The notes: generated by a model not told the origin, from the sequence alone. A stretch of DNA of 40,233 nucleotides from a virus (IMGVR_UViG_3300014711_000001:1-40233); one strand, 5' to 3'. Counted from the first letter of the stretch, positions 8,479 through 37,725 are shown. Numbers and translations are program-made.

Positions 8479-8851
8479 GGCGCAGCTTCGGCCCTGCGGC
8501 GATGAGGCAGCGGGAGCAATCCTGTCGCAGATCGTGATGGCCAAGGCGTCAAAGGATTTTGATGCCGAGATTTACATCAAGCTGTTACGGCGCGCGTCGA
8601 AGTCGGCATTGAAGGAAGCGGCAGCGGAAATCATCAAAAGCCCAGACCCGTTCATTCCGGTCCCTGGTGCAATTTGGACAGCTTGCGAGGCCAAATCAAA
8701 AGCCATGCAGACAGAACTACGAGCCATTCAGCGGATACTACAGCCAAGGGATCCAGCCCCAAGGGAAATGACACAGGACGAGCGCGCGGCGTCATTGGCA
8801 AGGATCAAGGCCTACAGGCCGGGGGAATTGTTCAAGAGGGCCACGGCATGA
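8426..8851 (+). CDS. Hypothetical replication-module protein
   Basis: 141 residues from the ATG at 8426, which overlaps the initiator gene by 53 bases; a GGGGGA site sits about ten bases upstream. The protein is mostly helical: 'LEAQLRPCGDEAAGAILSQIVMAK', 'FDAEIYIKLLRRASKSALKEAAAEIIKSPDPFIPVPGAIWTACEAKS', then a charged C-terminus. The pattern 'PFIPVPGAIWTACE' resembles phage proteins located after initiators that may help load the helicase, but I cannot confirm a family. No Walker motif is present, so it is not a DnaC-type ATPase. Confidence 0.65.
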   Translation: MISEDQQSSLKARAGWLEAQLRPCGDEAAGAILSQIVMAKASKDFDAEIYIKLLRRASKSALKEAAAEIIKSPDPFIPVPGAIWTACEAKSKAMQTELRAIQRILQPRDPAPREMTQDERAASLARIKAYRPGELFKRATA

Positions 8852-9894
8852 CCACGATGCTCCCCTTCAAATTCGCTCCAATGCGGGAATATGGCGAATT
8901 ATTGATTCACGCAGAAGATCAAATCCTACCGGTTCCTAAGCCCGATATGGTCATTGGCGAGCCGGAGATTATTGCCCCAACAGCGTGGCAATATGATCGC
9001 TACGGTCAATTTCGAAAGGGCGATGGAATTTTAGCTTTTGGTCGGTTTGCTGTGATGCTCCATGACGTAATCGTTCACCGTCACGGCATGGTCAAAGACC
9101 GCTGGCATATTCAGTTGGACGCGGAACACGTTGCCCTTGAAAGCTATCGTCATGGCGAATGGTTTGCCGCAAATATGGGGGATGGGTTTTATGAAAACGG
9201 CGAATGGATGACGGCCATCCCCTTTGATGACGTGACCCCCATCCCTAAAATGGGCAAATCAACGATGATGAGATCCATGTGGGATGACAACTACGCCCAC
9301 TTTATCCATGAAACCTGCCCCCGTCTGGATTACGTCAACCGTTTCCCCCGCACAGGTCTGACGGGCGAGAACTGGTCTCGTGGCGGCAACACGCGCTGGC
9401 ATTTCGACGAACTGCTATTTCCTAGTTTCTGGCCCCATGTGAGTCTGTCACCCGATCCAATACACTGGCTGCGGGACCGCTTTGGCCAAAAGAAACACGG
9501 CGACATGGTTCTATGGTTGAGCCGGTCAGACGCTACCAAACGCCGGATACTGAACGAAGCCGAAGTATTGCGGGCCATCAGTGATTGGGGATTCCCCGTC
9601 ACAACGATGATACCAGGGAACTACACCGAGGAGGATCAGGTCAAAGCCTGCGCCAATGCCTCAATCATCATTGGCCCCCATGGCGCGGGGTTTATCAACA
9701 CGATATTCGCCCATCAGGCGGCGGTGATCGAACTGATCCCCAAAGCATACCAACACCCCATGTATCAATGGATGAACAAGTGGGCGGGGAACTGGTACGC
9801 GCGGATCATCTGCGATGCCGATCACAATATGGACATGACAATTGATCTGGACCAGTTGAAACAGGTTTTAGCCGAAGCAAGGGGGACGAAGTGA
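8848..9894 (+). CDS. GT61-family glycosyltransferase
   Basis: 348 residues from the ATG at 8848 (ATGA overlap with the upstream stop). GT61/DUF563 features are visible: 'DDNYAHFIHETCPRLDYV' (about residues 146-163), a 'WLSRSDATKRRILNEAEVLRAISDWGF' stretch with the R...N-E-x-E pattern, and 'DQVKACANASIIIGPHGAGFINTIFAHQAAVIELIPKAY', the diagnostic GxHGAGxxNxxF signature. These enzymes move sugars onto glycans, usually in the cytoplasm. No transmembrane helix. It is unusual between replication and packaging genes. It could modify host surface polysaccharide (serotype conversion), phage protein or DNA; the target is unknown. Confidence 0.85.
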   Translation: MTTMLPFKFAPMREYGELLIHAEDQILPVPKPDMVIGEPEIIAPTAWQYDRYGQFRKGDGILAFGRFAVMLHDVIVHRHGMVKDRWHIQLDAEHVALESYRHGEWFAANMGDGFYENGEWMTAIPFDDVTPIPKMGKSTMMRSMWDDNYAHFIHETCPRLDYVNRFPRTGLTGENWSRGGNTRWHFDELLFPSFWPHVSLSPDPIHWLRDRFGQKKHGDMVLWLSRSDATKRRILNEAEVLRAISDWGFPVTTMIPGNYTEEDQVKACANASIIIGPHGAGFINTIFAHQAAVIELIPKAYQHPMYQWMNKWAGNWYARIICDADHNMDMTIDLDQLKQVLAEARGTK

Positions 9895-10373
9895 CCAGAG
9901 CAACCCGCAAACGAAAGCCCGTAACCCTTCCCGGTGATCTGGGTGCAGTCGGCCCCGCCTCAATGGCGCGACCATCCTACCTTGGGCAGACCGCGAACTA
10001 TGCCGGCGCACCTGTCGCGCGGATATTCAAGGAACCGATCAAGATTGATTGGTACCTATCCCGAGGACTGTTGACAGACCGCCAGCATCAGGCAGCCGTT
10101 AAATTCGCCCGTTGGTGGGAAATCGCCCACGGCCACCCCAAGGTCACGGCAAGTCTCAATGACGCCCCCAAGCAGACCGTGAACGAGTACAACCAGCAGA
10201 AGGAGGACGCCACCACTAGGATCAGGATCGCCCTGAACGCGGCAGGGTGTCAGTGCCATGACGTGATTGTGCAGGTCTGCGGGTTGGATGAATGGCCCAA
10301 AACAACCATGGCAACTTTCCTATTGCGGTCAGGGCTGGATGCCATCGCCAATAGGCTCAAACTACCAAACTGA
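9891..10373 (+). CDS. DUF6456-like HTH protein, possible late regulator
   Basis: 160 residues from a GTG at 9891 (overlapping GTGA). The C-terminal two thirds, 'IDWYLSRGLLTDRQHQAAVKFARWWEIAHGHPKVTAS', 'DATTRIRIALNAAGCQCHDVIVQVCGLDEWPK' and 'LLRSGLDAIANRLKL', follow the pattern of the DUF6456 domain of alphaproteobacteria and their phages (a compact helical domain, possibly DNA binding). It lies at the boundary between early and packaging genes, a usual place for a late-gene regulator, which is inferred only. Its end carries one copy of a 17-bp repeat. Confidence 0.65.
   Translation: MTRATRKRKPVTLPGDLGAVGPASMARPSYLGQTANYAGAPVARIFKEPIKIDWYLSRGLLTDRQHQAAVKFARWWEIAHGHPKVTASLNDAPKQTVNEYNQQKEDATTRIRIALNAAGCQCHDVIVQVCGLDEWPKTTMATFLLRSGLDAIANRLKLPN
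10350..10366. repeat. 17-bp direct repeat, left copy
   Basis: AATAGGCTCAAACTACC is repeated exactly at 10557-10573. The two copies flank the 57-residue gene at 10385-10558, each overlapping the 3' end of a gene, as if the small gene had been inserted or duplicated at a short repeat. Confidence 0.9.
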
Positions 10374-10384
10374 AAGGAAACAAC

Positions 10385-10558
10385 ATGACTCTCGAAGAAG
10401 CTGAAAAAATCTGCAAAATCATTGAAACCGCCGATGATGGTTGCTCCCTATGCGTGAAGGATATGGTGCGTCAATTCAACAATGGTGAATTTGGGTTTGT
10501 GTGGAAATACAACACAAACGATTACCAAAGAGATTTTGTGTCCGTTGAACCTGCTTAA
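10385..10558 (+). CDS. 57-residue protein flanked by direct repeats
   Basis: A strong ribosome site (AAAGGA) stands 6 bases before the ATG. The protein begins MTLEEAEKICKIIETADDGC and goes on 'SLCVKDMVRQFNNGEFGFVWKYNTNDYQRDF'. Three cysteines are present without a clear metal site. I do not recognise a family. The gene sits between two exact 17-bp direct repeats and reads AT-richer than its neighbours, both signs of recent gain. Confidence 0.75.
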   Translation: MTLEEAEKICKIIETADDGCSLCVKDMVRQFNNGEFGFVWKYNTNDYQRDFVSVEPA

Positions 10559-10573
10559 TAGGCTCAAACTACC
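10557..10573. repeat. 17-bp direct repeat, right copy
   Basis: Exact second copy of 10350-10366. It starts inside the stop codon of the 57-residue gene and ends just before the TTGACA of a promoter candidate. Confidence 0.9.
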
Positions 10574-10576
10574 CAC

Positions 10577-10605
10577 TTGACACAAGGTATATGGTAGGGG
10601 ACAAT
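10577..10605 (+). promoter_or_regulatory. Strong sigma-70-like promoter candidate
   Basis: TTGACA at 10577-10582 and GACAAT at 10600-10605 are separated by 17 bases, a near-consensus bacterial promoter. Transcription would start around 10611, at or inside the ATG of the next gene (10610), so that gene would be leaderless from this promoter or use a read-through transcript. It may boost expression of genes leading into packaging. Confidence 0.5.
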
Positions 10606-10609
10606 TTAC

Positions 10610-10987
10610 ATGATTGATTCGTGCGCCCAGAGCGCAGACGACATTCGCCTAGCCTACATTGAAGCGGTTAAAGAAAGCATTAAGTCCTTAAAAGGATTTG
10701 ATTGTTCGCTTGTTGACGATTCTGACATTGTTGACCTCGGCACTCGGGCGCTTATGTGGCGCAACATCCACAGATGGGAAGCGTTATTCGCTTATAGGGA
10801 TGACCACCGATATGAGGTTATGGCCGCCCCGATGCATACAATGTTCAGGTTTGACCGTGGATTCCCAGATCCAAAAGACGGGCTATTTGGGAAAAAAGAC
10901 CCGTCCCGCATGACTTACAATCAAGTCGTTGAACTTGCCGTCGGTCGTTATCAGGCCGCATACGACAAAATAAGGGAACTATCCTGA
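10610..10987 (+). CDS. Hypothetical protein
   Basis: 125 residues, MIDSCAQSADDIRLAYIEAV at the start. It appears mostly helical, with 'VDLGTRALMWRNIHRWEALFAYRDDHRYEVMAAPMHTMFRFDRGF' in the middle and 'MTYNQVVELAVGRYQAAYDKIREL' at the end. No recognised motif. AGGGGA stands 9 bases before the ATG. Its last codons contain the ribosome site for the following glycosyltransferase, so the two are probably coupled. Base composition is similar to its 57-residue neighbour. Confidence 0.65.
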   Translation: MIDSCAQSADDIRLAYIEAVKESIKSLKGFDCSLVDDSDIVDLGTRALMWRNIHRWEALFAYRDDHRYEVMAAPMHTMFRFDRGFPDPKDGLFGKKDPSRMTYNQVVELAVGRYQAAYDKIRELS

Positions 10988-11811
10988 AACTATCCATTGT
11001 CATGGCCAGCCGTGGCAGGCCCGAGAGCCTTGCCCGCGCGGTTCAGAGCCTTGTTGATAACGCGGATAACCTTGACCAAGTAGAGATTATTGTCGGCTGC
11101 GACGACGACGACAAGGCCACATGGGATGCTGTTCACAATGGGACACTCCCAAAGGCCAAGTACCTGTTCACCGAGCGCCCTCCAACCCTGCACCACGTCA
11201 TAAACCGCTGTGTAGAACACTCGGCAGGCGATTGGCTGGTGGCGTTCGGTGATGATTACGTAGCACAGGACTTCGGGTGGGACCGGGCATTTATCCAAGC
11301 CATATCACACGCACCAGACGGGGCGGTGTTAAGCTGGGATGACCCAAGCCACCCCAGGTTTCCGAGTTTATACGCCGTCCCCCGCAAATGGCTTGAATAC
11401 ATGCCTTTCGCGGATGAGCGATTCCCCTTCTGGTGGTCGGACACCGGCTGGAGCGAGATTCGACGGCTAACAGGGCTAGGCTGGACTGTGGCGACTACGG
11501 CAGCCTCACAATCAAGGGGCAAGACCCAATCGCTTCGAGAGATTGGTTTCTGGTCCCAGCTATTCGAAGCCACCCGCCCCGAACGCGAACAGGCGGCACT
11601 GGCGATACTCCAACAGTGTCCCCACACGTTCCACAGATCAGCCCTAGAAGCATGGCAGGAACGGCTAGCAGTATGTCAGGGCATGGTTGAACACTGGAAA
11701 GACCCATTGGTCTGCAAGCACTTTGAAACGGCCTTAGCGGGTGCGTCCAATCCCCGCTATGACGAAACAAAACGTAAAGCATTGGCGTTGTTGAACAAAC
11801 TCAAGGATTAG
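10984..11811 (+). CDS. GT2-like glycosyltransferase, likely CTG start
   Basis: 275 residues if read from the CTG at 10984: LKLSIVMASRGRPESLARAV is the usual first strand of a GT-A fold enzyme (family pattern 'KLSIV-x-x-SRGRP'). Starting at the first ATG (11002) would cut this strand. AAGGGA lies six bases before the CTG but 24 before the ATG, which also favours CTG. Downstream are 'VEIIVGCDDDDKATWDAV' and an acidic metal-binding candidate 'WLVAFGDDYVAQDFGWD' near residues 80-96. The CTG overlaps the preceding TGA. Sugar donor and target unknown. Confidence 0.8.
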   Translation: MKLSIVMASRGRPESLARAVQSLVDNADNLDQVEIIVGCDDDDKATWDAVHNGTLPKAKYLFTERPPTLHHVINRCVEHSAGDWLVAFGDDYVAQDFGWDRAFIQAISHAPDGAVLSWDDPSHPRFPSLYAVPRKWLEYMPFADERFPFWWSDTGWSEIRRLTGLGWTVATTAASQSRGKTQSLREIGFWSQLFEATRPEREQAALAILQQCPHTFHRSALEAWQERLAVCQGMVEHWKDPLVCKHFETALAGASNPRYDETKRKALALLNKLKD

Positions 11812-13674: not shown

Positions 13675-15880
13675 GTCCCTGCGGCAATTCAAGCCGCTAT
13701 CCGAGACAGAGATCCAGCAGATCGTTGCGGCAGAATCTCAAGATGCAATCGGTAACGTAGGTGGCCTTGTATCTTCGCAGCGTGAGACAGCCCTCAAGTA
13801 TTACCTCGGCCTGCCGTTCGGCAATGAACAGGATGATCGCTCCCAGATCGTAATGACCGAAGTCCGTGACGTGCTTGAAGGCGCGTTGCCGACCATGCTC
13901 AAGATATTCACGTCATCGGATGATGTTGTGAGGTTTGAGCCGCAGTCCCCCGAGGATGAGCAGGCCGCACAGCAGGCAACCGACTACATCAATTACATTT
14001 TCTACCGCAAGAATCCCGGCTTCAAGATTCTTTATACCTGGTTCAAGGATGCGCTTCTGTCCAAAGTCGGCGTGGTTAAATGGTGGTGGGACGAAAACAA
14101 GGACGTCACCGAGGAGAGCTATAACGGTCTGGATGACATGGGTCTGGCGCAGTTATTGGCCGATCCTGACGTTGAGCCTATCGAACACAGCGCCGAACCC
14201 GAAGTGCTTGAGATGATGGACCCCATGACGGGCCAGCCTCAACAGCAGCAGGTCATGACGCATAGCGTTAAGGTCAAGCGCACCAAGTCCTACGACCAGG
14301 CTCGGATTGCCAACGTCCCGCCCGAGGAGTTCCTGATTAGCCGAGATGCCACGGATATCATGGGCGCCCGGTTTGTCGGCCATCGTGTCACCAAGACCGT
14401 TAGTGAATTGATCGCAATGGGCTTTGACCCTGACGTGGTGGACCAGATTCCCACGGAGGACCAGACCTATTGGTCCACAGAATATATCGTTCGCCGTCAG
14501 AAGGATGACGAGTTCGGGGCGAGCATTCCCCAGTCGGTTGATCCATCACAGCGCCGCGTGACCGTGGTAGAGGGTTACTACCGCATGGACGCGGATGGGG
14601 ATGGTATTGCCGAGTTGCGCCAGATTTGGCATGGCAACCTTGGCACCCCGATCCTGTCCAATATCATGTGGGACAGTGACCGCCCGCCGTTCGCGGCCCT
14701 GACGCCGTTCCCGATGCCGCATCGGTTCTTTGGCTTATCCCTTGCGGATATGGTTCAAGACCTACAGCTATATAAATCGACCCTGCTGCGTCAGATCAGC
14801 GATAACATCTATTTCACGACCAACGCTCGGCACAAGGTCAAAATGACCTCACCGGACAGCGTGAACATCGATGACGTGCTGTCCTCCACCCCCGGCGGGA
14901 TTATCCGCATGAAAGCGGACGGCTCAGACGTTGAGCCTGTCGGCGCGGCCCCGATGCCTAATTTCGCTTATCAGTTGCTCGAGTATCTGGACACCATCAA
15001 GGAAAACCGCACAGGCGTCACGCGGTACAATCAGGGTCTAGACGCCGACAGCCTGAACCAGACCGCTACGGGGGTTAATCAAATCCTCAATCAAGCAATG
15101 GATCGGTTGTTGCTTATCGCCCGTGTGTTTGCCGAAACCGGCGTCAAAGACCTGTTCAAGGGCCTGTTGGGTCTGATCTGCCAGCATCAGGACAAAGCAT
15201 CGGTTATCCGGTTGCGTAATACCTGGGTACAGATGGATCCTCGCGAATGGAACCGCATGGACGATATTACGGTCCATGTGGGTCTGGGTACGGGTGACAA
15301 GATGGAATCCGCCCGGGTATTGACTCAGTTACTCGCGGTACAGGAAAAGATGGCGATGGCCGGAAACCCCGGCGGCATGGTGCGCCCCAAAAACACGTTT
15401 AATCTGTTGTCCGAGTTCGCCAAGGCAGCGGGTCAAAAGAACATTGACCAGTTCTTTACCGACCCTGACAGTCCGCAGGCGCAAGAGACCATGCAGCAGC
15501 AGGCTCAAAAGCCCAATCCTGAAATGATGAAGCTACAGGCCGAGGGCCAGCTTCGCCAACAGGAAATGGCCATGCAACAGCAGACCGAGCAGATGAAGGC
15601 TCAGGTCCAAATGCAGTTGGCGCAACACAAGGCCGAATTGGACGCGCAGGTTGCCCAAGCACAGCAGCAGTCACAGCAGGCCCAGAACAACGCCCAGATG
15701 CAGAACGACATGGCGATGGCGCAATTCAAGGCCAATCTCGACGCGCAGTTGCAGCAGTGGAAAGCCAAACTGGACGCCGAGACCAAGATTATTGTGGCGC
15801 AGATCAGCGCCAAGGCTTCGGTTGATGCCGCCACGACACAGGCAGCGGATCAGGGATTAACGGATAGCTTGGAGCAGTAG
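13667..15880 (+). CDS. Portal protein (P22-type)
   Basis: 737 residues from a GTG at 13667. The order 'LKYYLGLPFGNEQDDRSQIVMTEVRDVLEGALPTMLKIFTSSD' and 'FKILYTWFKDALLSKVGVVKWWWDE' near the N-terminus, 'IANVPPEEFLISRDATDI' in the middle, and 'GLSLADMVQDLQLYKSTLLRQISDNIYFTTN' match P22-like portals of podoviruses. The last 170 residues are a Gln/Ala/Lys-rich helix ('QLRQQEMAMQQQTEQMKAQVQ...'), comparable to the long C-terminal barrel of P22 gp1. It forms the dodecameric DNA channel and binds the terminase and adaptor. Confidence 0.92.
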   Translation: MAKSLRQFKPLSETEIQQIVAAESQDAIGNVGGLVSSQRETALKYYLGLPFGNEQDDRSQIVMTEVRDVLEGALPTMLKIFTSSDDVVRFEPQSPEDEQAAQQATDYINYIFYRKNPGFKILYTWFKDALLSKVGVVKWWWDENKDVTEESYNGLDDMGLAQLLADPDVEPIEHSAEPEVLEMMDPMTGQPQQQQVMTHSVKVKRTKSYDQARIANVPPEEFLISRDATDIMGARFVGHRVTKTVSELIAMGFDPDVVDQIPTEDQTYWSTEYIVRRQKDDEFGASIPQSVDPSQRRVTVVEGYYRMDADGDGIAELRQIWHGNLGTPILSNIMWDSDRPPFAALTPFPMPHRFFGLSLADMVQDLQLYKSTLLRQISDNIYFTTNARHKVKMTSPDSVNIDDVLSSTPGGIIRMKADGSDVEPVGAAPMPNFAYQLLEYLDTIKENRTGVTRYNQGLDADSLNQTATGVNQILNQAMDRLLLIARVFAETGVKDLFKGLLGLICQHQDKASVIRLRNTWVQMDPREWNRMDDITVHVGLGTGDKMESARVLTQLLAVQEKMAMAGNPGGMVRPKNTFNLLSEFAKAAGQKNIDQFFTDPDSPQAQETMQQQAQKPNPEMMKLQAEGQLRQQEMAMQQQTEQMKAQVQMQLAQHKAELDAQVAQAQQQSQQAQNNAQMQNDMAMAQFKANLDAQLQQWKAKLDAETKIIVAQISAKASVDAATTQAADQGLTDSLEQ

Positions 15881-16434
15881 TGGACCATTACTATCAGGAC
15901 CTTGAAGGGTTCTTTGACTTTCAGGACGCTTACAAACTCGCCATTGATACCACCGCGAACGGGGGCATGTTTGTCGAGGTTGGCTCATGGAAGGGTCAGT
16001 CAGCGGCTTTCATGGGCGTTGAGATTGTTAACTCAGGCAAAGACATTAAACTTTACTGCGTCGATACCTGGGCAGGATCCGATGAACACGTCACCGATGA
16101 TGATGTGATACTCGGCACCCTGTATGACCGTTTTCTGGAGAACACCCGCCCCGTTAAGGACGTGGTTGTCCCCATCCGCAAGACCAGCGTGGAAGCGGCC
16201 AAGGAATTCTTGGACGGTACGGTTGACTTTGTGTTTATCGACGCCGCCCATGATTACGACAACGTACTAGCCGATATCCTCGCATGGTGGCCCAAGGTTC
16301 GCCCAATGGGGATGATCGGTGGCCATGATTTCAACGACTTCAACCCCGGCGTGATTAAGGCTGTGACTGAGAACTTCCAAATGGTTCACATGCTCCCAGG
16401 CTGCGTCTGGATGATCGGTAAGCCCAAGATTTAA
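15880..16434 (+). CDS. Class I SAM-dependent methyltransferase
   Basis: 184 residues from a GTG at 15880 (overlapping the portal stop). 'GMFVEVGSWKGQSAAFMGVEIV' (about residues 29-50) is the SAM-binding motif I, 'LYCVDTWAGSDEH' a motif II/III region and 'VDFVFIDAAHDYDNVLADI' the post-motif; 'GMIGGHDFNDF' follows. The pattern fits the Methyltransf_24 group, often associated with glycan or small-molecule methylation. It sits between portal and scaffold genes, so it is produced with the virion. Possible target: sugars added by the phage glycosyltransferases, or a structural protein; unproven. Confidence 0.85.
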   Translation: MDHYYQDLEGFFDFQDAYKLAIDTTANGGMFVEVGSWKGQSAAFMGVEIVNSGKDIKLYCVDTWAGSDEHVTDDDVILGTLYDRFLENTRPVKDVVVPIRKTSVEAAKEFLDGTVDFVFIDAAHDYDNVLADILAWWPKVRPMGMIGGHDFNDFNPGVIKAVTENFQMVHMLPGCVWMIGKPKI

Positions 16435-21453: not shown

Positions 21454-23582
21454 TGCCCCACTTTACACTTCAACTCGGCGGCGGGGTGGTGGCTGATGAC
21501 AGTTCGGTCGCAGCCAAAGGGCGTGTGGTCGCAGCCGATAAAATGCGCTTTCGCCAAGTGGGCAATGAACCCTATGCGGAGGTAATAGGCGGGTGGGAAG
21601 ATGCCATTGGCTCAACCTTCGCCGGCACGTGCCGGGGGTTGTTTGCCAACGCCGACTTGTTGGGCAACCCGTTTCTGGTCGCAGGAACACATAGCAAGCT
21701 ATACGCTTGGACTGCGGGTTCTTTGTATGACGTGACGCCATTTGAAAAGACCAGCGTTCTTTCTGCGGCAGTCACCACAAGCCTTGCAAGTACAACGGTC
21801 ACAATCAATGACCCTGCCCACGGGCGGGCTACGGGATCCTATGTCAATATTGCGCTCCAGACAGCAGCGGTTGGCGGCATAACCCTATCAGGGGTCTATC
21901 AGTTGACCTCGGTATCAACGGACTATTACAGCGTCACGGCATCCTCTACCGCGTCCTCCACTTCAAGCGGCGGCGGTGTGGTGGTAGCGAACTATCAACT
22001 CGCACCGGGCAATGTGGACGGTCTGGGGCAGGGTGGGTATGGCGTCGGCACTTATGGGTCGGGGTCTTACGGGACTTCACAGCTAGCGGGCAAGACCTAT
22101 CCCCGCACATGGTCACTGGATTCCTGGGGCCAATACACGATCTGCAATCCTCGCGGCTACGGGGTTTATGAACTCCAGCCCGTCACGTCCAACACCGAAC
22201 TGAACCTTGATACGACATTTGCCACCACGGCGTCATGGACGGCAGGAACGGGTTGGAGTGTCACAGGTAACGCAGGGGTGGCGACGGCGGGTAGTGCTTC
22301 TACCTTGTCAATCGCAATATCCTCGGCATCGGTTGGGGGTTATTACCGCGCCACGATTACCGCCACTCGTTCGGCGGGGACGTGTCAGGTCATGCTTGGG
22401 TCGCAGAATGTCGGGTCGGCTATTTCAGCATCGGGGACGTTTGTATCCACCTTCCTTGCAACTGCAACGACGCCGCTGTCATTCTCGAAAGATGCGAGTT
22501 TCGCGGGGTCAATCACGCTCGCAAGCCTGAAGCTTGAGCCTTACGCCTATCAGATCACGAATTGCCCGAATACCGCTTCATGCGCTTGGGTGACGGGTGA
22601 AAAGATACTGGCCTTGGGTGGGACGGCAAGGGTATCAGATGGGACTGTTTCGCCCCTCACGGTAAGATGGTCGGATCAAGGCAATAACACGACATGGACG
22701 CCTTCGACCACAAATCAGGCGGGTGACTTCCAGCTATCCGAGGGGACCAAAATCCTCAAAGGCTTGGCCACTCGCAACCAGTCTTTGATATTCACCGACA
22801 CGGCCCTTTATGGCATGCGGTATTTGCCTGGTGATCCGCTGATCTACAGTTTCCCCCTGCTCGGGGTGGGGTGTGGGATTATCGGCCCCAATGCAGCGGT
22901 TGATGCCAATGGTATCATTTACTGGATGGGCAATAACGCTCAATTCTTCCGCTATGCCGGCGCGGTTGTTGAGGATGTCCCCTGCTCATTGAAGTCTGAC
23001 CTGTTCAACAACATCGCCCCCGGTCAGGGCGAGAAGGTCTATGGCTGGTACAATTCACGCTTTAACGAAGTGTGGTGGCTTTATCCCGACAATCGGGACG
23101 GAACCGAATGCTCCAGGTATGTCTCGCTTCAACTAGACAATGGCTGGTGGTCGCAAGGAATATTCACACGGACGGCGGGCTGCGATCAGGGCGTTTTACC
23201 CTATCCGATCATGACCGGCACCGATGGGATTGTGTATTACCACGACAAGGGAACAAGCGGGAACGGGGCCAGCTTCTCGGCTTCGATGGAGATATTCCCG
23301 CAGGAAATCGCGGAAGGCGAGGGCATTGTTCCGATTACACGAATTATCCCTGATTTCAAGAACTTCACAGGTGGCTGTTCGGTGTCCCTCTATGCCCGTC
23401 ACTGGCCGCAGGATTCAGTGACGATCTACGGGCCATATACGATTGGCAATTCAACGCTGAAATATGACCTTCGTGTGGCAGCGAGGCAATTAGGGGCGAA
23501 ACTGGTGTTCTCGGGCGCTCCCAACACGGCCCGCATGGGCGCGGTGCGATTTGACATTCGACCGACCGGCGCGAAACGATGA
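21453..23582 (+). CDS. Tail hub/nozzle protein (gp10-like beta-propeller)
   Basis: 709 residues. Repeated 'LFANADLLGNPFLVAGTHSKLYAWTAGSLYDVTPF', 'NCPNTASCAWVTGEKILALGG', 'LKGLATRNQSLIFTDTALYGMRYLPGDPLIYSFPLLG' and 'AAVDANGIIYWMGNNAQFFRYAGAVVEDVP' are blades of the propeller found in P22 gp10 and related tail hub proteins. A carbohydrate-binding-like Thr/Ser/Gly insert (about residues 240-370) interrupts the propeller. It plugs the portal-adaptor channel and carries the fibres. The insertion could be a receptor-contacting domain. Confidence 0.8.
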   Translation: MPHFTLQLGGGVVADDSSVAAKGRVVAADKMRFRQVGNEPYAEVIGGWEDAIGSTFAGTCRGLFANADLLGNPFLVAGTHSKLYAWTAGSLYDVTPFEKTSVLSAAVTTSLASTTVTINDPAHGRATGSYVNIALQTAAVGGITLSGVYQLTSVSTDYYSVTASSTASSTSSGGGVVVANYQLAPGNVDGLGQGGYGVGTYGSGSYGTSQLAGKTYPRTWSLDSWGQYTICNPRGYGVYELQPVTSNTELNLDTTFATTASWTAGTGWSVTGNAGVATAGSASTLSIAISSASVGGYYRATITATRSAGTCQVMLGSQNVGSAISASGTFVSTFLATATTPLSFSKDASFAGSITLASLKLEPYAYQITNCPNTASCAWVTGEKILALGGTARVSDGTVSPLTVRWSDQGNNTTWTPSTTNQAGDFQLSEGTKILKGLATRNQSLIFTDTALYGMRYLPGDPLIYSFPLLGVGCGIIGPNAAVDANGIIYWMGNNAQFFRYAGAVVEDVPCSLKSDLFNNIAPGQGEKVYGWYNSRFNEVWWLYPDNRDGTECSRYVSLQLDNGWWSQGIFTRTAGCDQGVLPYPIMTGTDGIVYYHDKGTSGNGASFSASMEIFPQEIAEGEGIVPITRIIPDFKNFTGGCSVSLYARHWPQDSVTIYGPYTIGNSTLKYDLRVAARQLGAKLVFSGAPNTARMGAVRFDIRPTGAKR

Positions 23583-24355
23583 TTCCAGTCTTGGCGTCTA
23601 AATTCACGCCATACGATGATGTTTTGAAGCAAAGGGCAAAGGACGGTTCATACCCCGCGATATTGCACAAGCCGTCTGGCTCGGTATCGCTTCCTGATCC
23701 GTTCACCTCGGCATTGGTTCAATATCATCTGGATCAGTTGGGGTGCAGGGATGCAAAGCCCACGATTGATTTTTGCGTGTCCTTCGAAAGCCCGACCTTG
23801 CCGGGGACGTTTACATACCAGAAAGACGGTTCAATGCCGTCTGACACAGACTGTACAGCCGTCATTCTAATGATGCTTCTGCGGCATGGCCTAGCTCAAC
23901 CGCGGCAGATATCAAAGATAATTGATGGCCCCATGAAGCCCGTTTGTGTCTCGGATGGAATTTACGCCACATGGATGGGCGTATCCCCCACGGGGAAACA
24001 AGACATCGACCCGGTTGTAAACGTCAATATGTCGGTATTGCTCAAGGCAGTCGGCAGACCGATAAACAACACGATTGCATGGGCCTCAAGGGTGATTGGT
24101 CAGGCAAAGTCGCCCAATGACGCGGCTAAACTATCGGCCTGGTATTCAAGCCCGCAAGAGATTCTTTTTGCATTGGATCGCGCCATTCAACAGGGCGTCA
24201 ATGAGTGGTCACAGTTGCGGCAAGTGATTTCCGGCTACGCATGGGGGCAGCCGGAACTATCGGACAGTCATAAGATATACAGGGGATTGAACCCCGCTGA
24301 TTATGTGACGTGTCGCGCGTTGCAGAGAGTTCGCCGGATTGTCTACCAACGCTAA
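23579..24355 (+). CDS. Class II terpene cyclase-like toroid protein (predicted)
   Basis: 258 residues, ATGA overlap with the tail hub gene. About four repeats of the alpha-alpha toroid type can be read: 'DGSYPAI ... FTSALVQYHLDQLG', 'GTFTYQKDGSMPSDTDCTAVILMMLLRHG', 'DGIYATWMG ... DIDPVVNVNMSVLLKAVG' and 'AWYSSPQEILFALDRAIQQG'. The second contains DTDCTA (residues 89-94), which follows the D-x-D-[DC]-T-A catalytic-acid pattern of class II terpene cyclases (DxDD in squalene-hopene cyclases; DCTAE in oxidosqualene cyclases). At 258 residues it is one domain rather than the usual two. It could instead be a non-catalytic structural toroid. Next gene overlaps it. Confidence 0.6.
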   Translation: MIPVLASKFTPYDDVLKQRAKDGSYPAILHKPSGSVSLPDPFTSALVQYHLDQLGCRDAKPTIDFCVSFESPTLPGTFTYQKDGSMPSDTDCTAVILMMLLRHGLAQPRQISKIIDGPMKPVCVSDGIYATWMGVSPTGKQDIDPVVNVNMSVLLKAVGRPINNTIAWASRVIGQAKSPNDAAKLSAWYSSPQEILFALDRAIQQGVNEWSQLRQVISGYAWGQPELSDSHKIYRGLNPADYVTCRALQRVRRIVYQR

Positions 24356-24821
24356 GGCCGACAGGTTCCGCGAGTGTGTCAATAGGTGGTTGTTAGGAAA
24401 CGCGGAAGCTATTGAGTTCGCAGAGGTCGTTTGTGGCATCGCCCATGTGTGGGATGACCTCATTGACTGCGACAATGACCTAGACGATTCCGCAATTCAC
24501 CGAGCGTTCTGGGATGCGCTGATAAGGCTCCCCCGCCTTCCGTTCTATGCGCGGAACTTTGTTTCATTCCAGCCGTTACTAGAAACGGCAATCATTAACT
24601 GGCAGATCGCAAACGAACTTGAGCAGTCGGGGACCAAGCCTGACCTGCATATCGCGTTTGTTCTCCGGTCCTCTTACGCAGATTTGATCTTGATGGCAAT
24701 GCGCCTCGTCGGTGGCGACGAGTACGCGCGACAAGCTGGCGTTGAAATGCGCCGCACATGGAGCAGCGAAGGCTTTGACGCCTATTGCGCGGCCCTTGAA
24801 AACGAAATGAGGCGAGCATGA
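24339..24821 (+). CDS. Class I terpene synthase-like helical protein (predicted)
   Basis: 160 residues from a TTG at 24339, overlapping the toroid gene by 17 bases. All-helical. 'FAEVVCGIAHVWDDLIDCDND' has the aspartate-rich DDxxD of class I isoprenoid synthases (residues 39-43), and 'NWQIANELE' (87-95) has the N-x3-x-x3-E spacing of the second metal motif, with Ala in place of Ser/Thr. 'DLHIAFVLRSSYADLILMAMRLVGG' continues the bundle. It is half the length of usual enzymes, and the two motifs are only about 45 residues apart, so catalysis is unproven. Its pairing with the toroid gene is what makes it notable. Confidence 0.55.
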   Translation: MSTNAKADRFRECVNRWLLGNAEAIEFAEVVCGIAHVWDDLIDCDNDLDDSAIHRAFWDALIRLPRLPFYARNFVSFQPLLETAIINWQIANELEQSGTKPDLHIAFVLRSSYADLILMAMRLVGGDEYARQAGVEMRRTWSSEGFDAYCAALENEMRRA

Positions 24822-34030: not shown

Positions 34031-34510
34031 ATGGACCCCCTCAGTCTGATCGGGGGCCTTTCCGGCTTATTCGGGAAGGTCGTAGATAAGATTTGGCCGG
34101 ACCCTGCACAGGCGGCAGCGGCCAAACTAGCTTTAATGGAAGCGCAGCAGCGCGGCGACCTCGCCGAGCTGGATGCTGAAATGAAACTCGCCCTTGCGCA
34201 GTTGGACGTGAACAAGACCGAAGCGGCCAATGCCAATGTGTTTGTCTCAGGCTGGCGTCCATTTGTGGGGTGGGTCTGCGGCGCGGCGTTCGCTTGGGCG
34301 TTTGTGGTTTCGCCGTTTGTTACCTGGATTGCGTGGCTTGCCGGCAAAGACATTGGCCATGTTCCTGTCCTTGACCTGTCCCAGATGACGCCCGTCCTAA
34401 TCGGGATGTTAGGTCTAGGAACTTTAAGAACCTATGAAAGATCAAAGGGCGTGGCACCCGGCATGACCGACCGCGAAATGCCATCCTACCAGCCCACGGC
34501 CAAAAAATAG
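34031..34510 (+). CDS. Holin of the GTA 3TM family
   Basis: 159 residues. A helical N-terminus ('LSLIGGLSGLFGKVVDKIWPDPAQAAAAKLALMEAQQRG'), then 'NVFVSGWRPFVGWVCGAAFAWAFVVSPFVTWIAWLAG' and 'MTPVLIGMLGLGTLRTYERSKG'. The 'FVSGWRPFVGW' element is the hallmark of the 3TM holin family first seen in the gene transfer agent of alphaproteobacteria (GTA_holin_3TM). It should form the pore that releases the endolysin. Length is typical. This is one of the better hints of an alphaproteobacterial host. Confidence 0.85.
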   Translation: MDPLSLIGGLSGLFGKVVDKIWPDPAQAAAAKLALMEAQQRGDLAELDAEMKLALAQLDVNKTEAANANVFVSGWRPFVGWVCGAAFAWAFVVSPFVTWIAWLAGKDIGHVPVLDLSQMTPVLIGMLGLGTLRTYERSKGVAPGMTDREMPSYQPTAKK

Positions 34511-35448
34511 TGCTATTTAGACCCGTTTCGCTCGCGGAACGGGAGCGACGAATTGCGGCCATCCTTGCCGCCCCTTCATTGAACAAAGCCGCCGATTCCC
34601 TCGGGATGCCTCAAAGCACCCTGAAACAATGGGCGCGCACCAATAAGGACCGCTTGCGCCAGACTAGCGCAATATCCCCAATCATCCGACCTGCGCATAT
34701 CACCAAGATCCTCGCGGTTGGTGACTGCCACGACTCCCCCCATATTTCTGACAAATCCCGCTTTGAATGGATCGGTAAACACGCCCGATCTATCAATGCA
34801 GACTACATCGCCCAAGTGGGTGATTTCATGTCCATGGACAGCATTTGTCGGTATGTCCCCGATGAAACCCATTCGGGACGGCTCAAGGGTACGGTCCTTG
34901 AGGAATTTGAATCCGGCAACCTCGCCCTCGACGCTATTGACGCAGGGCTTAACGGGCATCCCTGCAAAAAACACATAACCTTCGGCAATCACGAATGGCG
35001 CATTGACAGCTATTCCGAACGCAACCCCGCCATATACGGGATGCTGATGATGCAGCTTGAGGATATGTTCAAGCACCGGAAATGGACCCATTCCCCCTTC
35101 AAAGCATATCACTCAATCGCAGGTGTAGATTTCACCCATGTCCCTCATTCCAAAATGGGCAAACCGATGGGGGCCAATGAAATCACAATCGCCAATCAGT
35201 TCACCTCGGATGTTGTGTTCGGTCATACCCATGTGGCCCGGGCGATTACGGCCCCGAAACTGGGATCCAAGTCCCTTGTGACGATTATTAACCCTGGTTG
35301 CGCCTTACCCTACGGATATGTCGAACCTTACGCCAAGCACACCCTCACCGGCTGGTCATGGGGCGTGATGGAATTGACGGTAGAGGATGGCTCAATCCGC
35401 GATTTTGCGTTTGTCTCCATGAAAACCCTAGAGGAACAATACAAATGA
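34510..35448 (+). CDS. HTH-fused metallophosphoesterase
   Basis: 312 residues from a GTG at 34510 overlapping the holin stop. An N-terminal HTH-like region ('ERERRIAAILAAPSLNKAADSLGMPQSTLKQWARTNKDRLRQ', residues 9-51) precedes a calcineurin-type phosphoesterase with GDCH (71-74), GDF (104-106), GNHE (159-162) and GHTH (238-241), the full set of metal ligands. It is likely an active phosphodiesterase or phosphatase acting on nucleic acid or nucleotides; substrate unknown. Similar fusions are seen in phages. It follows the lysis genes, so it is made late. Confidence 0.88.
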   Translation: MLFRPVSLAERERRIAAILAAPSLNKAADSLGMPQSTLKQWARTNKDRLRQTSAISPIIRPAHITKILAVGDCHDSPHISDKSRFEWIGKHARSINADYIAQVGDFMSMDSICRYVPDETHSGRLKGTVLEEFESGNLALDAIDAGLNGHPCKKHITFGNHEWRIDSYSERNPAIYGMLMMQLEDMFKHRKWTHSPFKAYHSIAGVDFTHVPHSKMGKPMGANEITIANQFTSDVVFGHTHVARAITAPKLGSKSLVTIINPGCALPYGYVEPYAKHTLTGWSWGVMELTVEDGSIRDFAFVSMKTLEEQYK

Positions 35449-36771: not shown

Positions 36772-37725
36772 TCATTTTGCCCCGTTTGTCCCTTTTGTCT
36801 GGACAAAAGAAACCAGCTTCCCCAGCGCATTTGACGCGCGGCGCTTCTGGTCAGCGGTTCGGGTATATCGCTGCACATTCCCCAATGACTTATGGCCTGT
36901 AATCGCTGCCACCTCAAAGGCCGATGCCCCGGCCAGTGCAAGCCTTGTGGCGGCGAGGTGGCGGCATCCGTGAATAGATAGGCCAACCATCCCCAGCCGC
37001 CTTACTTCCCTGTCAAAGGCTATTGAAAACGCTTCGGGCGTCCACGGTTTACCCCGATAGGTCGCAAGGATCGTGGTGGTCTGTGTCTCCCGCTTCCACC
37101 TTGCAAGCTCCCTCTGCATTTCTTTATCAAGCGGGATTGATAATTCTGTGCCGGTCTTTTGTTGGGTCAGGGTGATCCAATCCCCGTCCCATTGGCCCCA
37201 GGTTAGGCGCACAAGGTCAGATCGTCGCTGGCCTGTGGCAAGTGCCAACAATACCGCGCGGCGCATTTCCTCGCGGGCGTTTTCAAGCCAGTATGTTACT
37301 TGTTCCTCGGTCCACGGCGCACCCTGATTTTGCTTGAACCTAGGCACGTCCCGGCAGGGGTTGTTTTCGATCAGATCCAAATCAATGGCGTGTTTGAATA
37401 ATTGGGATATGACAGCCAAAACCATATTGGCCTGACCCTCGCCACGGATCGCCACAAGTTCCCTCAACATCAGGATGTTGCGGCGTTTGATGTTCTCTAT
37501 CGGGGAATTAAGCAGTTCGACGGGGATGTATTTGAACGCCCGCTCATAGGCTGTCTGTGTTCCCGCGCCCAAGGCCCGCCAAGCGGCGGTTGTCTGATAA
37601 CTGACGATGATATGCCCCAACGTCCCAAAACCGGGAACCGTTGGCTTTACCTTGCGCTCATAACGATAGGTTTTGACGCTTCCGTCTTTGAGCCTTGCCT
37701 TGACGGTTATCGTTTTGCGCGACAT
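36772..37725 (-). CDS. int: Tyrosine recombinase / phage integrase
   Basis: 317 residues. An N-terminal SAM-like DNA-binding region ('GAGTQTAYERAFKYIPVELLNSPIENIKRRNILMLRELVAIRG') precedes the catalytic domain: Arg in TGQRRSDLVRL (R167), H-x-x-R in IHGCRH (H252, R255), His in TGHKSLG (H278) and the nucleophile in VQRYTR (Y287). It should integrate and excise the phage at an attP near its 3' end. It overlaps the excisionase-like gene by 68 bases and is the last gene of the leftward operon. The C-terminus ends in a charged tail. Confidence 0.95.
   Translation of the reverse strand: MSRKTITVKARLKDGSVKTYRYERKVKPTVPGFGTLGHIIVSYQTTAAWRALGAGTQTAYERAFKYIPVELLNSPIENIKRRNILMLRELVAIRGEGQANMVLAVISQLFKHAIDLDLIENNPCRDVPRFKQNQGAPWTEEQVTYWLENAREEMRRAVLLALATGQRRSDLVRLTWGQWDGDWITLTQQKTGTELSIPLDKEMQRELARWKRETQTTTILATYRGKPWTPEAFSIAFDREVRRLGMVGLSIHGCRHLAATRLALAGASAFEVAAITGHKSLGNVQRYTRTADQKRRASNALGKLVSFVQTKGTNGAK

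Follow-up and report, generated by a model that had tools for sequence, protein, structure and literature searches.

Two overlapping genes in a phage virion operon, ORF1 and ORF2, are best explained, at a probability of roughly one in two, as side-by-side genes of different history. ORF2 would be a core gene of the ejection module, placed immediately before genes for gp14/15/16-type ejection proteins, and ORF1 would be a later arrival encoding a stand-alone class II terpene cyclase beta (TC-beta) domain. In the part of the literature that was covered, no description of a terpene cyclase in a tailed phage was found.

The window (the whole stretch of DNA analysed), a single virus contig, is 40,233 bases long and encodes SU10-type portal, major capsid and adaptor proteins together with scaffold, terminase, holin and integrase genes; judged from this gene content, the virus is a temperate podovirus of the SU10/LUZ24 type. 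Relatives of the portal and hub proteins were found in Bradyrhizobium, Sinorhizobium, Roseobacter and Caulobacter phages, among others; because these relatives come partly from alphaproteobacterial phages, an alphaproteobacterial host is plausible. Elsewhere in the window, GT61 and GT2 glycosyltransferase genes (8674-11811) lie between the replication and terminase genes and may form a conversion module that modifies the host surface. The gene that follows the portal gene (15880-16434) has a partial match to a DNA methyltransferase PHROG (profile positions 316-460 of 599), and a calcineurin-like phosphoesterase gene (34510-35448) adjoins the holin gene.

The first-pass annotation had placed two overlapping genes between a tail hub and ejection genes, and the gene calls agree with this arrangement, as do the profile matches of the upstream and downstream neighbours (Table 1). 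The 709-aa upstream protein also matched proteins labelled 'phage stabilization protein' and structural proteins in tblastn searches. ORF1 and ORF2 are co-directional and overlap by 17 nt; the ATG of ORF1 overlaps the stop of the upstream gene (ATGA), and the 3' end of ORF2 overlaps the ATG of the next gene at 24818. Their orientation and their GC content by codon position, including the third position, resemble those of the neighbouring genes. Together, the overlaps and the neighbour-like third-position GC support reading both as real late-operon genes.

Table 1. Positions in the window of the genes, motifs and residues discussed.
Feature	Position	Strand	Comment
Tail hub/stabilisation-type virion protein, 709 aa	21453..23582	+	phrog_3287, E 8e-55; upstream of ORF1
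ORF1 (P1), 258 aa, predicted stand-alone class II terpene cyclase beta domain	23579-24355	+	ATG start
DTDCTA, DxD(T/D)T-type motif of ORF1 (D89, D91, T93)	23843..23860	+	aligned with D331-x-D333-T-T of AsDMS
Y189 of ORF1	24143..24145	+	aligned with essential Y427 of AsDMS
ORF2 (P2), 160 aa, phrog_21390, trans-prenyl-diphosphate-synthase-like helical bundle	24339-24821	+	TTG start
DDLID of ORF2 (D39, D40, D43) in AHVWDDLIDCD	24453..24467	+	C-terminal end of helix 22-43
E95 of ORF2	24621..24623	+	96% E in 57 non-redundant relatives
R110 of ORF2	24666..24668	+	invariant in 57
E144 of ORF2	24768..24770	+	93% E, 5% D
First ejection-type protein, 457 aa	24818..26191	+	phrog_4287 'DNA ejection protein', E 5e-4; position
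Second ejection-type protein, 485 aa	26625..28082	+	by position; inferred from relatives' gene order
Third ejection-type protein, 604 aa	28064..29878	+	by position; inferred from relatives' gene order
Integrase	36772-37725	-	

No curated family in Pfam, PHROGs or NCBIfam matched ORF1, and no relatives were found in the phage records, viral contigs or species genomes searched, peptide-pattern scans included. Relatives were found on two plasmids. The Azospirillum lipoferum 4B protein WP_162488481.1 matched with an E value of 2e-6 at first and 9e-10 over nearly the full length, and the Calothrix NIES-4101 protein BAZ36681.1 was reached through it (E 2e-26). ORF1 is 26-30% identical to these proteins, all three share D-x-D-x-T, and both plasmid relatives bear DADDT, the class II terpene cyclase motif. 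The DTDCTA that had been noted at residues 89-94 of ORF1 is indeed there, and its aspartates are retained in the homologues. The four or so G..W/Y repeats proposed earlier correspond to no repeat family in the three collections named above; one repeat of the DG[SWY] type is visible (AKDGSYP) and pairs with QQDDGSF of a plasmid relative.

A profile built from the three sequences was searched against all 177,635 PDB sequences and returned five matches, four of which were chains of HAD-TC-beta enzymes, namely two sequences of drimenol synthase (AsDMS; 9mhs/9mlo at E 0.06 and 9m7d at 0.53, the best matches) and two of AstC (22ty/22tz, E 0.59 and 1.3). ORF1 alone reached 9mhs in the same region at E 2. 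The reversed profile, used as a control, gave zero matches against the PDB, and a profile without ORF1 found neither drimenol synthase nor AstC; therefore, it is ORF1 that carries the PDB signal. None of 3000 shuffles attained the observed score against the drimenol synthase stretch, either for ORF1 alone or for the profile, a test that is supportive and not independent because the target had been chosen as the best match. The PDB match is thus suggestive and below significance over the whole database. The AsDMS fragment searched against the plasmids gave no match, and the Pfam models Polyprenyl_synt and SQHop_cyclase_C had none in the window. Additionally, a comparison with two rhizobial proteins taken as copalyl diphosphate synthase candidates (annotated as hypothetical and identified from operon context) superimposed the motifs, one of the comparisons giving E 0.003 as against 0.23 in the reversed control. 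A single-sequence AlphaFold model of ORF1 had a pLDDT of 36 and was discarded with no fold search. On balance, ORF1 is likely to be a TC-beta homologue.

The alignment with AsDMS also places the catalytic residues in register. The sequence numbering of 9mhs equals the published numbering minus 10 (its F308, Y309 and F318 are the F318, Y319 and F328 of the paper), and with the numbering mended, D89, D91 and Y189 of ORF1 correspond to D331, D333 and Y427 of AsDMS, with T93 opposite T335. Each of these three AsDMS residues is essential (PMC12365925; D333 also PMC9128629), and D333, activated by Y427, protonates FPP (PMC12365925, PMC9128629). Y189 is invariant in the three members of the ORF1 family, and DTDCTA is also aligned with DADDTA of the candidate rhizobial copalyl diphosphate synthase. 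At the fourth position of the motif, ORF1 has C where AsDMS has T and the plasmid proteins have D; the sites of F318 and Y319 hold F and Y in the plasmid proteins and Y and Q (Q81) in ORF1. Loss of Y319 abolishes AsDMS activity (PMC12365925), so that ORF1, with Q at this site, may use a different substrate or be weakly active. The first-pass annotation had likened ORF1 to a class II cyclase, and the apparent relationship to TC-beta domains, with the catalytic aspartate pair and tyrosine kept, agrees with this. Its further suggestion that so short a protein might be inactive does not follow, because a TC-beta domain of about the same size works in fusion with HAD in drimenol synthase. A stand-alone TC-beta cyclase, possibly active, is the most likely identity of ORF1, with the balance tilting slightly towards catalytic activity. 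ORF1 would probably use D91, aided by D89 and Y189, to protonate a prenyl diphosphate of the host (FPP or GGPP) and would release the cyclised prenyl diphosphate into the host cell; since it lacks a HAD phosphatase domain, the diphosphate would be expected to stay on the product.

The two plasmids that carry the ORF1 relatives have a cassette in common (L003:4775-9059 in Azospirillum and L040:4550-8804 in Calothrix), which encodes a protein of 750-775 aa, a DMATS-like protein and the TC-beta-like protein. The match to DMATS-type aromatic prenyltransferases is weak (E 0.018 for the Calothrix protein), and by its predicted content the cassette looks like an undescribed prenylation-cyclisation cluster.

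For ORF2, the AlphaFold2 model was confident (pLDDT 90.7), and VIA-align matched the whole protein to solved structures with a best Z of 10.1 and an rmsd of 3.6 over 142 residues. Trans-prenyl diphosphate synthases (heptaprenyl, geranylgeranyl and others) made up nearly all of the 37 top structural matches. In that family the second helix ends with the first Asp-rich motif, and in ORF2 it ends with DDLID. For a helical bundle, a Z of 10 does not decide the matter, and the Foldseek search gave E values above 1. At the level of sequence, the best unconstrained path between ORF2 profiles and prenyl synthase profiles laid WDDLID on the first Asp-rich motif at a non-significant E of 0.18, and a deep ORF2 profile searched against the PDB reached designed proteins only (E 0.43 and above). 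A shared prenyl synthase fold is fairly probable; ORF2 was filed as folding like these enzymes and not as a member of their family, because it has no NSE or second Asp motif and no sequence-profile support.

Chance could account for these resemblances if ORF1 were helical but unrelated and ORF2 simply a generic bundle of helices. Such a reading would fit the empty searches of curated families, the sub-threshold scores and a middling Z of the kind that helical bundles easily reach. It is improbable, however, in that HAD-TC-beta chains, few in the PDB set searched, make up four of the five ORF1 matches with the catalytic Asp and Tyr in register, the reversed-profile control was empty, and a single superfamily tops the structural list of ORF2. 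The motifs in both genes exceed chance, D-x-D-x-T recurring in every member of the three-protein ORF1 family and DDxxD, E95, R110 and E144 being kept across that of ORF2.

ORF2 belongs to phrog_21390 (profile E 1e-29), a large, widespread and undescribed phage family of unknown function. The first search for relatives gave 19 loci, and a scan for H-x-W-D-D-L-x-D-x-D gave at least 80 viral contig loci, with an ORF2 relative encoded at 69 of 80 among the matches listed. Conservation was computed over 57 non-redundant family members with identities down to 23%, a range over which H36, D39, D40, D43, D45, E95, R110 and E144 are kept; N67 is conserved in 89% of the members. The DDLID that had been pointed out at residues 39-43 is a DDxxD, equivalent to a first Asp-rich motif, and its D39, D40 and D43 are invariant, partly through selection, because most relatives were fetched with the HxWDDLxDxD or AHxWDD pattern. 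The relative in Achromobacter phage CF418P1 (WNO49113.1, 42% identity), found without a pattern, bears the motif as well. The aspartate motif persists throughout the family, together with E95, R110 and E144. Readings of the acidic motif as an HD domain or as MazG/dUTPase-like were dropped, since neither spacing nor residues fit. At one locus (L135:2647-3559), two tandem overlapping ORFs both match the family profile, the second weakly, possibly reflecting a duplication or a frameshifted copy.

The earlier proposal that ORF2 is a class I isoprenoid-synthase-like bundle held in part. The prediction is of a helical bundle that comes nearest, among solved folds, to the trans-prenyl diphosphate synthases, but the second motif is absent. 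NWQIANELE is present at residues 87-95, yet N87-x3-A-x3-E95 is no NSE motif: position 87 is N in 16 of the 57 relatives and A in 17, and it belongs to helix 74-97, the fifth element of the bundle. In class I enzymes, the NSE motif or second DDxxD sits on the last long helix, where neither ORF2 nor its family has a second Asp-rich motif or NSE/DTE, E144 alone being conserved there.

These features bear on whether the two proteins are inactive scaffolds, with the folds used structurally in assembly of the tail or ejection complex and the motifs left as relics or structural salt bridges. The virion module does hold both genes, ORF1 has C at the fourth DxDD position and Q for Y319, and ORF2 has no second metal site. 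Scaffolding is nonetheless unlikely, though it is the best placed of the alternatives, considering that ORF1 keeps all three essential catalytic residues while being so distant from its relatives and that the most conserved residues of ORF2 are largely charged or polar, as in an active site.

Large co-directional genes directly follow the ORF2 homologue in CF418P1 and in most of the contigs that extend far enough. These genes usually grow in length and were in part identified by profile; the order is comparable to that of the gp14-gp15-gp16 ejection operon (PMC8954989). Sister phages that have no ORF2 fill the same slot differently. Roseobacter phage CRP-902 encodes a GNAT there (gp35, Pfam 3e-8), and in two others (MW202879 and MW805364) the slot protein is annotated as an acetyltransferase with no Pfam GNAT match. 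Modification by ORF2 of an N-terminal Cys in the downstream ejection protein (MSC, MGC and MCGGG starts) was considered and rejected, as many ORF2 phages do not have such a Cys. By its position, ORF2 is likely to serve the ejection module. Its bundle, with conserved acidic residues, one His and one Arg, would most likely be that of an assembly factor or a small metal-binding enzyme that acts on the ejection proteins themselves or on how they are packed into the virion, in the slot that an acetyltransferase occupies in sister phages.

A search of 16 ORF2-bearing phage records, run with no positive control, revealed no ORF1 counterpart. On this basis, ORF2 is taken to be the core gene and ORF1 an addition to it. 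The distribution and position of ORF2 also speak against the dedicated gene pair of the first-pass annotation. A related reading is a single pathway in which ORF1 would cyclise a prenyl diphosphate and ORF2 would remove or transfer the diphosphate, the product altering the host envelope or the virion. Such a pathway would account for the class II then class I order with overlap, which resembles the CPS-KS pair of rhizobial gibberellin operons; a Mesorhizobium plasmid likewise has two such genes after a polyprenyl synthetase, the two being taken as CPS/KS from the known make-up of that operon. Both folds bind prenyl diphosphates, and ORF2 keeps DDxxD and further acidic residues. The pathway is quite improbable all the same, since many phages have ORF2 without any ORF1 relative found, ORF2 has only 160 aa with no second Asp motif or NSE, and its conserved place is the ejection module. 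Still more speculative is a terpenoid made or handled in virion assembly or DNA ejection, with ORF2 binding a prenyl diphosphate, ORF1 supplying a cyclised one, and the ejection proteins or host envelope being modified for genome entry.

Under the preferred reading of two probably independent genes, ORF1, if active, would be a phage-borne class II cyclase without a phosphatase or gamma domain and a very small natural test case for the capabilities of a TC-beta domain on its own. ORF2 provides a structural lead on a widespread phage family that is tied by position to the ejection apparatus, and since acetyltransferase and phrog_21390 alternate in a single slot, the role of the gene before the ejection trio becomes directly testable in a cultured phage (CF418P1).

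Among known systems, the HAD-TC-beta drimane synthases (AsDMS, 9mhs/9m7d, and AstC) share with ORF1 the DxD(T/x)T, D-x-x-V-x-x-N and Y-x-x-P blocks in the same order and register, whereas ORF1 has no HAD phosphatase domain, lies in a phage virion operon, differs from AsDMS at motif position 4 and at Y319, and resembles it below database-wide significance. The Azospirillum and Calothrix plasmid proteins are full-length homologues with the DxDxT motif; unlike ORF1, they have a complete DxDD and adjoin a weak DMATS-type gene instead of lying in a phage operon. For ORF2, phrog_21390 members such as that of CF418P1 occupy the same place before ejection-type genes, but neither CF418P1 nor the other phrog_21390 phages yielded a relative of ORF1. 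The trans-prenyl diphosphate synthases (heptaprenyl, geranylgeranyl) match ORF2 structurally over its full length, and in both the second helix ends with DDxxD, whereas ORF2 is half their size and has neither the second Asp-rich motif nor sequence-level support. The GNAT gp35 of CRP-902 is likewise small and enzyme-like and takes the same slot as ORF2, with an unrelated fold.
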